A stretch of DNA of 64,000 nt, taken from assembly GCF_000485795.1 (NCBI RefSeq), contig NZ_AXZL01000076.1, positions 831,895 to 895,894 on the forward strand, read 5' to 3'. Each line of letters starts with the position of its first letter. Position 1 is the stretch's first letter. The stretch is from Shewanella decolorationis S12 (GTDB lineage: Bacteria; Pseudomonadota; Gammaproteobacteria; Enterobacterales; Shewanellaceae). This document shows, in pieces, positions 2,867-19,820 of the stretch. Made by a program: the position numbers and the translations under genes. Under the pieces are notes generated by a model. It did no database searches and had not been told where the DNA came from. It worked only from the letters and a program-made list of their open reading frames with translations.

Positions 2867-3157
2867 TCACCTAAAGGTATATAAAACTATATAAGTCAAA
2901 ATATTAAACAGGCCCAAATAGCCGATTGCTCTAAGTCCGGTTTTAAACAGAAAGCTAAAACTTAATATCAGCAACCAAATGGGTGTAATCATCCACATGT
3001 TGAATTGCACCTTAGTGTCGGCATCGATTCCACCCGGGCCAAACCAAGCAAATAATCCCACTAGGCCCAAGGCTAAGGTGAAGCCTAAAATCAATCCCGC
3101 CAGTGACTTAGTCCACCAGTCTGGCTGTAATTTGTCGTTTTCCGCTAAACGCGCCAT
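2867..3157 (-). CDS. Small membrane protein of the PepSY operon
   Basis: This 96-residue protein has about three hydrophobic segments (from about residues 18-40, 53-71 and 76-94) with a FGPGG turn after the first. I do not recognise the family with certainty. Small membrane proteins of this kind often sit beside PepSY_TM genes in iron-uptake loci. It is 3 bp downstream of the preceding gene and 6 bp upstream of the PepSY gene, so the three are almost certainly one transcript and possibly one membrane complex. Confidence 0.75.
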   Translation of the reverse strand: MARLAENDKLQPDWWTKSLAGLILGFTLALGLVGLFAWFGPGGIDADTKVQFNMWMITPIWLLILSFSFLFKTGLRAIGYLGLFNILTYIVLYTFR

Positions 3158-17620: not shown

Positions 17621-18685
17621 TTACTTATGGTACTGCTTAGATTGAGCATGAACCGCCTTGATAAAGGCACCTGCATGCTCTGGGTCAACGTGCTGATGGA
17701 TACCATGGCCTAAGTTAAACACATGGCCAGAGCCTTCACCGTATCCCGCCAGAATTTGGCTCACTTCTTCTTCAATGCGCGGAATTGGCGCGTACAGCAT
17801 AGAAGGATCCATATTACCTTGTAGTGCCACTTTATGGCCTACACGGCGACGGGCGTCGGCAATATCGACTGTCCAGTCTAAACCTAAAGCGTCACAACCC
17901 GTTTCAGCCATAGCTTCTAACCATAAACCACCCCCCTTGGTGAATAAGGTCACAGGCACTTGGCGACCATCGGCAAAACGAGTCAAACCATCAACAATCT
18001 TCTGCATATAACGCAGTGAGAATTCACGGTAAGCCGTGTGCGATAATGCACCACCCCATGAGTCGAAGATCATCAGTGATTGAGCGCCGTTAGCAACCTG
18101 CGCATTCAGGTATAAAGTCACTGAATCCGCTAATTTGTCGAGTAGCATATGCAGTGCTGCTGGCTCTGCGTAGGCCATCTTCTTAATTTTTTCGAAGGTT
18201 TTGCTTGAGCCACCTTCAACCATGTAAGTCGCAAGTGTCCAAGGCGAGCCAGAGAAACCAATCAATGGCACCTGGCCGTTTAATTCGCGGCGAATGGTGC
18301 TAACCGCTTTCATCACATAACCCAGCTCATCTTCTGGATCGGGAACCGCTAATTTTTTGATGGCATCGATAGTGTCTGTTGGGCGTTCAAAACGTGGGCC
18401 TTCGCCCGCCTCAAAATACAGACCTAACCCCATGGCATCGGGAACAGTCAGAATATCGGAAAACAGAATCGCCGCATCCAGCTCGTAACGACGCAGTGGC
18501 TGTAGCGTCACTTCACAGGCCAATTCATGGTTTTTGCATAAAGACATGAAGTCACCCGCTTGAGCGCGAGTCGCTTTGTATTCAGGAAGATAACGGCCAG
18601 CTTGACGCATCATCCATACCGGAGTCATATCAACAGGCTGTTTTAGTAGGGCGCGTAAATAACGATCATTCTTTAATTCTGCCAT
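17621..18685 (-). CDS. hemE: Uroporphyrinogen decarboxylase
   Basis: HemE converts uroporphyrinogen III to coproporphyrinogen III in haem synthesis and is a cytosolic dimer without cofactor. The signature [15 protein letters not shown] is at residues 21-35, with the substrate-binding Arg residues and the [12 protein letters not shown] loop (catalytic Asp). [26 protein letters not shown] and [15 protein letters not shown] follow. The length of 354 residues is typical. The neighbour rsd is divergent, as in E. coli, where rsd and hemE lie close together. Confidence 0.97.
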
Positions 18686-18883
18686 TTGGCTTGATTCCTA
18701 GACTTATTGAGATCCGCTGGGGCGGTAGTTTAGCATTTACGCGAATAATGTAACCAATATGAGCTAATTAATGTGAGCTAATCCCCATCATTGCTGTCCA
18801 TTTAAGCACTTATCCTTAAAATGCTACCCAGATAACATACTGTTTACTAATCAAACTCGAAGTCACACTAAGACAGAAAAAAG

Positions 18884-18912
18884 TTGCGCTGGTTTCCTGC
18901 CTTTGGTATAAA
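18884..18912 (+). promoter_or_regulatory. Predicted sigma-70 promoter of an intergenic RNA
   Basis: TTGCGC (18884-18889) and TATAAA (18907-18912) are separated by exactly 17 bp. The hemE gene runs the other way and rsd has its own promoter further on, so this one appears to serve the short unit that ends at the terminator near 19008. Confidence 0.6.
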
Positions 18913-18918
18913 AAGTTT

Positions 18919-19008
18919 GCGCTAGCAAGAACAATCAAGAAGCTCGTCGCATCGAGCCTGCCATATACATTACTCGCCCAACGATAGGTTTCTATCGTTG
19001 GGCTTTTT
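18919..19008 (+). ncRNA. Candidate small RNA (about 90 nt)
   Basis: Downstream of the promoter at 18884-18912 lies a short unit with a 5-bp hairpin GCTCG-TCGCAT-CGAGC (18942-18957), a single-stranded A/U-rich linker and a perfect 12-bp terminator stem. The stem is GCCCAACGATAG, loop GTTT, CTATCGTTGGGC (18976-19003), followed by five T. No ORF or ribosome binding site fits inside. The layout is that of an Hfq-type small RNA with a 3' intrinsic terminator. I do not recognise it as a named RNA. An rsd leader is less likely because the terminator would block readthrough. Confidence 0.55.
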
Positions 19009-19080: not shown

Positions 19081-19110
19081 TTGATCGAATAGCTATTTCT
19101 CCCCTACATT
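19081..19110 (+). promoter_or_regulatory. Predicted rsd promoter
   Basis: TTGATC (19081-19086) and TACATT (19105-19110) have an 18-bp spacer and would start transcription about 30 nt before the rsd ATG. It lies after the orphan terminator, which supports rsd being transcribed separately. Confidence 0.45.
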
Positions 19111-19144
19111 AGAGTCATGTCCTAGCACTAAAATGGAATGCATC

Positions 19145-19633
19145 ATGCTGAGAGAACTCGAAAAAGCAGAACAAAAGTGGGGCGGTTCAAATAAGCTTAT
19201 AGATCAATGGCTAGAAAATCGTCGTAAACTTCTTGTGCATTACTGCCAAATTGCAGGGCTTCCTCCTTACACGAATGCTGAAAAATCTCTTCCTTCATTT
19301 GACCACGTAAAATCCTTCTGCGACCTATTAGTGGATTACGTCTCCGAAGGCCATTTTGAGGTTTACGATCAAGTGATTAATGCCTGTGAAAAATTTGGAG
19401 CATCTTGTAAAGCGACAATTCAACAGGTATTACCTCAAATTACCCCGACAACCCATGCGGCATTAGACTTTAATGATAAGTACGCCGAAGCGCTGGATGA
19501 CCAAGTGTTATACCAGCTCGATAAGGATCTCTCCGAACTGGCCCACACCATGGAAACCCGTTTCGAGTTAGAAGATAAACTGCTTGAGGTATTACATAGC
19601 AAATATTCTGAGCATGCAGCCCAACAAGCGTAA
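19145..19633 (+). CDS. rsd: Anti-sigma-70 factor Rsd
   Basis: This 162-residue helical protein of the Rsd/AlgQ family binds sigma-70 region 4 and, in E. coli, helps shift RNA polymerase toward stress sigma factors in stationary phase. Family hallmarks seen are GSNKLIDQWLENRRKLLVHY near the N-terminus, LVDYVSEGHFEVYD in the middle and ETRFELEDKLLEVL near the end. The frame is open from 19133, but ATG 19145 has GGAA six bases upstream and aligns with the E. coli MLNQL start, so I chose it. It lies divergently from hemE, with a candidate small RNA between them. Confidence 0.92.
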   Translation: MLRELEKAEQKWGGSNKLIDQWLENRRKLLVHYCQIAGLPPYTNAEKSLPSFDHVKSFCDLLVDYVSEGHFEVYDQVINACEKFGASCKATIQQVLPQITPTTHAALDFNDKYAEALDDQVLYQLDKDLSELAHTMETRFELEDKLLEVLHSKYSEHAAQQA

Positions 19634-19774: not shown

Positions 19775-19804
19775 AAAAAAAGCCAGCTTTCGCTGGCTTT
19801 TTCA
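19775..19804. terminator. Bidirectional terminator between rsd and acnB
   Basis: The stem AAAAAGCCAGC / GCTGGCTTTTT with a TTTC loop lies between the convergent rsd and acnB genes and has T-runs on both strands. Confidence 0.9.
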
Positions 19805-19820
19805 TTATCATATCAATCGA

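Follow-up and report, generated by a model that had tools for sequence, protein, structure and literature searches.

The window analysed here, a 64-kb stretch (64,000 nucleotides) of the Shewanella decolorationis S12 genome, carries a compact plus-strand unit between hemE and rsd, in which a promoter, a hairpin and a terminator can be read directly from the sequence. The features of the locus are:

17621–18685, minus strand: hemE, an ORF and the divergent neighbour
18876–18882, plus strand: conserved A-rich tract GAAAAAA just 5′ of the −35 element, a possible UP element
18884–18889, plus strand: −35 element TTGCGC (genus consensus TTGCAC; 93% mean identity over 18883–18889)
18904–18912, plus strand: extended −10 element TG-G-TATAAA, 17 nt from the −35 element (98.6% mean identity over 18903–18912)
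18919–19008, plus strand: predicted small RNA (sRNA) of ~90 nt, drawn from matches in Shewanella genomes, a 51-sequence structural alignment and covariance models
18919–18941, plus strand: 5′ single-stranded segment GCGCUAGCAAGAACAAUCAAGAA, comprising a candidate seed, GCGCUAGC, and an A-rich linker that is a candidate Hfq distal-face site
18942–18957, plus strand: hairpin 1, with a 5-bp stem (GCUCG/CGAGC) and a 6-nt loop; double changes across families
18976–19003, plus strand: terminator hairpin, with a perfect 12-bp stem (GCCCAACGATAG/CTATCGTTGGGC) and the 4-nt loop GTTT; double changes across families
19004–19008, plus strand: terminator U-run (92% mean identity, dropping to 44% directly after)
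19081–19110, plus strand: rsd promoter-like site TTGATC-18-TACATT, separate from the sRNA and kept in 11 close relatives
19133–19633, plus strand: rsd, an ORF and the downstream neighbour; its start may be 19145

The first-pass annotation of this DNA had proposed an undescribed sRNA of about 90 nt, built from a promoter with 17-bp spacing, a 5-bp hairpin and a perfect 12-bp terminator followed by a T-run, and every one of these elements is present where it had been placed. The −10 hexamer TATAAA occupies 18907–18912, with the extending TG at 18904–18905, and the T-run after the terminator stem reads TTTTTATTT; the transcription start near 18919 was deduced from the position of the −10 element. 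The unit also points away from hemE as described, with hemE divergent on the minus strand and the sRNA on the plus strand, and rsd, which starts ~130–140 nt 3′ of the sRNA terminator on the same strand in this genome, is preceded beyond that terminator by the promoter-like site listed above, in keeping with the claim that it has a promoter of its own. A consensus promoter scan did not include the sRNA promoter among its listed sites because the −35 element is poor, and the reality of this promoter therefore rests on conservation.

Two further elements were seen around these genes. A conserved block, TAGTTTAGCATTTACGCG.ATAATGTAACC, at 18720–18756, upstream of hemE and >150 nt from the sRNA start, is probably the hemE promoter/operator, while a hairpin, AAAGCCAGC-TTTC-GCTGGCTTTTT, at 19775–19805, between the convergent rsd and acnB-like ORFs, is apparently a bidirectional terminator shared by the two.

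In a DNA search, all 97 of the 97 Shewanella genomes searched contained the unit, each giving a single significant match; hemE was divergent upstream and rsd lay downstream in 93 of the 93 Shewanella loci that were fetched. Among 90 distinct Shewanella sequences, mean majority identity reached 98.6% over the 5′ part of the RNA (18918–18946), compared with 44–56% in flanking DNA, and the single-stranded segment itself is near invariant. The promoter elements stand out in the same way, with 93% identity in the −35 element and 99% in the extended −10 element versus 48% in the spacer, as does the A-tract region (18875–18882; 85% versus 56% farther upstream). The terminator stem averaged 85% and the DNA just past it 44%. 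The blocks of high identity match the promoter, the 5′ segment and the terminator, and it is this comparison that establishes the gene and its borders. Candidate paralogs at other Shewanella loci (L094–L096) proved to be fragments without the full promoter–RNA–terminator unit and were dismissed.

The predicted RNA folds at −29.3 kcal/mol, against a mean of −16.9 for dinucleotide shuffles (z = −3.85), with 0 of 200 shuffles as low. We then examined covariation in an alignment of 38 diverse Shewanella sequences that had been aligned without structure information (A1), where double changes occurred in 12 of 18 pairs and the covariation score was 0.339, compared with 0.169 in shuffles and ≤0.131 in slid controls. 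Within the genus, hairpin 1 was weakly tested because its double changes stem from one divergent species. With homologs from other genera and families added, 18 of 18 pairs showed double changes (51 sequences), and the score rose to 0.559 (32 sequences) and 0.564 (51 sequences; 0.187 in shuffles, with 500 of 500 shuffles beaten), although fitting to the model biases these larger alignments (A4 and A5) in its favour; slid controls nevertheless stayed below 0.14. Across families, double changes were found in 6 of the 6 modelled pairs of hairpin 1 (87.5% of cells paired) and in all 12 pairs of the terminator (97.3% of cells paired; 51 sequences each). Comparison of the homologs thus shows that both stems are kept by compensatory changes, and the check proposed at first pass, which combined such changes with Shewanella-wide conservation of the promoter, was passed.

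To follow the sRNA beyond Shewanella, covariance model R1 and the wider model R2 were run on 394 genomes of the order, and R2 also on 369 genomes of the class. Matches to R2 were obtained in 71 of the 394 genomes of the order, while the 369 class-level genomes gave none outside the order. Most of the matches outside Shewanella were fetched and read. Homologs of like anatomy occur in six families of the order: f1 (including Ferrimonas), f4 (including a gammaproteobacterial MAG), f6, f7, f13 (including an Aeromonadales MAG) and f20. Common to the six are a GCUAG 5′ core, an A-rich linker of variable length, AAGAA, a hairpin, a spacer and a terminator, and the GCUAG core and the AAGAA preceding the hairpin are retained in nearly all homologs outside Shewanella. 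At 38 loci outside the genus, a TTG-type −35 element was present in 32 and a TG-extended −10 element likewise in 32. Model R3 matched 24 of 39 genomes in f6, 15 of 40 in f7 and 6 of 7 in f20; by this model, the sRNA is absent from one small-genome genus of f7.

The surroundings of the sRNA differ among these families, gene names outside Shewanella having been read by eye from protein sequences. In f1, f6 and f20 it lies beside hemE, and the next gene downstream is rsd, an opposite-strand nudC or others, while in f4, f7 and f13 it follows tex, usually with dsbB downstream. Because the neighbours change while promoter, RNA and terminator stay, comparative evidence shows the sRNA gene to be an independent transcription unit, not a leader of rsd or hemE.

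Several of the individual loci deserve mention. The sRNA follows tex, usually before a dsbB-like gene, at L134, L139, L141–L143, L152–L155, L157, L158, L161, L166 and L167, and most of these tex-linked loci have a further conserved sequence, GCAGACUGGAAAAC, after hairpin 1 and before the terminator, that Shewanella lacks. Some f6 members (L163, at about 2970–3083, L165 and L169) have a longer, repeat-like A-rich linker of the AAT/AAC type, and the models may be missing the true 5′ end there. Weak covariance matches at L145–L148 and L170 had no conserved 5′ motif and were dismissed as chance. Finally, in one record titled Marinobacter nauticus DP3N21-5 (NZ_JAHVJZ010000006.1; L228), the locus shares 85% identity with Ferrimonas balearica across 7 kb and contains an sRNA copy of the Ferrimonas type; on both grounds, the record is probably misnamed or contaminated.

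Searches against Rfam 15 gave no match in the 64-kb window at the gathering threshold, no match in the hemE–rsd intergenic region up to E = 5, and nothing beyond below-cut-off chance matches at 11 homologous loci. RF02837 (anti-hemB) matched weakly at two positions in the homologous loci, once over the sRNA, with 23–24 bits versus a cut-off of 49.5, and both matches were attributed to chance; the match over the sRNA lay on the opposite strand (fetched orientation) or overlapped the palindromic terminator. Few Shewanella sRNAs have been studied so far, to our knowledge, and we found no paper linking an sRNA to hemE/rsd in this genus. A computational list of 217 candidate sRNAs exists for S. oneidensis MR-1 (PMC5471319); neither hemE nor rsd appears in the main text of that study, although the locus may be among its candidates as a bare prediction. 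The sRNA is thus probably a new family matching no catalogued RNA family, and its description as previously undescribed is probable rather than proven.

An sRNA gene at 18919–19008 is almost certainly real. The reading that we favour, with a probability of roughly 0.7, is that a single-copy, independent gene here encodes an Hfq-type regulatory sRNA that acts in trans through an exposed 5′ seed. RNA polymerase with the housekeeping sigma factor would start near 18919 from the extended −10 promoter, and the intrinsic terminator would end transcription to yield the ~90-nt RNA. The exposed 5′ end, GCGCUAGC, would act as an mRNA-pairing seed held open by hairpin 1, while the A-rich linker would contact the distal face of Hfq and the 3′ U-run would bind its proximal face. 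We infer that the RNA is transcribed and bound by Hfq, and that it probably acts as an Hfq-type base-pairing regulator.

An open 5′ end, a hairpin and a U-tailed terminator make up the anatomy of Hfq sRNAs, and hfq is encoded in this genome (102 bits versus a cut-off of 27). The Hfq distal face accepts the trinucleotide A-R-N (PMC4104026). Adenine makes up 63% of the linker; the longest A-R-N runs are slightly above those of shuffles (18 of 1,000) and the triplet count is not above them (144 of 1,000). Because the runs exceed shuffles only modestly and the triplet count does not, distal-face contact is at most suggested, and the linker may simply be A-rich. Our search for targets covered exact seed matches and the hemE and rsd genes only. 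For the 5′ segment, the complementary 11-mer occurred nowhere in this genome apart from the sRNA itself, and 9-mer complement sites in three Shewanella species revealed no recurring start-region gene, as judged by eye. Pairing with the start regions of hemE and rsd was at chance, with 72% and 52% of shuffles, respectively, at least as good. It also counts against the favoured reading that the invariant segment, at 29 nt, exceeds the length of a usual seed and that AAGAA is not complementary to a Shine–Dalgarno sequence. The regulatory link to rsd, an anti-sigma factor gene, on which the first-pass annotation had speculated was not borne out: some homologs are followed by a gene other than rsd, or have no rsd within the stretch that was fetched, and the predicted pairing with its start region is no better than that of shuffled sequence.

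The position of the unit could also be explained by a cis-acting leader or attenuator of rsd, in which the terminator is conditional and read-through expresses rsd. That rsd lies on the same strand a short way past the terminator would fit, as would the start of dsbB ~30 nt past the terminator in another context (L134). However, the downstream gene varies among homologs (opposite-strand nudC, dsbB and various others), rsd has its own conserved promoter-like site and we saw no alternative pairing of the terminator arms that is conserved, making such a leader very unlikely. We give even less credence to a short-peptide mRNA, or to a DNA element misread as an RNA gene. Since conservation sets in at the promoter itself, a regulator site could extend over the +1, but compensatory change in both stems indicates an RNA. 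As for a peptide, no ATG or GTG occurs within 18919–19008, the TTG at the predicted start is followed by one more codon and then a stop (TAG), the sole other TTG sits inside the terminator, and linker length differences among homologs are not multiples of three. These comparisons show the gene to be non-coding and uphold its earlier description as free of ORFs.

Other readings accept an independent RNA and assign it a different partner. Binding and sequestration of a protein, as by CsrB-type RNAs or 6S, with the invariant 5′ segment and the AAGAA–hairpin region as the protein site, would account for the retention of AAGAA beside hairpin 1 by nearly all homologs against drift elsewhere, for a 5′ block exceeding the usual seed length and for the lack of a conserved target in our limited searches. 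We nonetheless regard it as unlikely, given that the RNA has neither the repeated GGA motif of CsrB-type RNAs nor a 6S-like long hairpin, and that its anatomy is the one generally associated with Hfq sRNAs. A little less likely again is an uncatalogued core RNA of the order whose 5′ module (GCGCUAGC, A-rich stretch, AAGAA and hairpin) binds either a protein or one essential RNA partner in a manner unlike CsrB, 6S and standard seed sRNAs. An RNA sponge, whose A/C-rich linker would pair with the G/U-rich seed of another sRNA (GcvB, for example), a mode reported for AgvB (PMC4104026), is highly improbable: several homologs do have ACAACAAC-like linkers, but one group of families is without such a motif, and a search of 12 Shewanella genomes yielded no GcvB above the Rfam cut-off.

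A trans-acting Hfq-type sRNA remains our preferred reading. The sRNA was present in all Shewanella genomes examined, its 5′ end hardly varies across the genus, and, since it is kept across six families despite changes of neighbourhood, it likely has a central regulatory role. With the alignments, covariance models and coordinates, a probe, a gene to delete and a seed to mutate are at hand, and a new Rfam entry could be built from them. Among known systems, ChiX and MgrR are Hfq-dependent trans-acting enterobacterial sRNAs with A-rich distal-face motifs. The hemE–rsd sRNA resembles this type in being short, intergenic and single copy, with its own promoter, an open 5′ region, an A-rich linker, a hairpin and a U-tailed terminator; it differs in matching no Rfam family by sequence or by covariance model, and its binding to Hfq is putative. 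Like the anti-sRNA sponge AgvB (PMC4104026), it is a small RNA whose A-rich 5′ region would contact the distal face of Hfq. The proposed partner in that system, GcvB, is not above cut-off in the 12 Shewanella genomes, and in contrast to the phage-borne AgvB, the hemE–rsd sRNA is chromosomal and order-wide.
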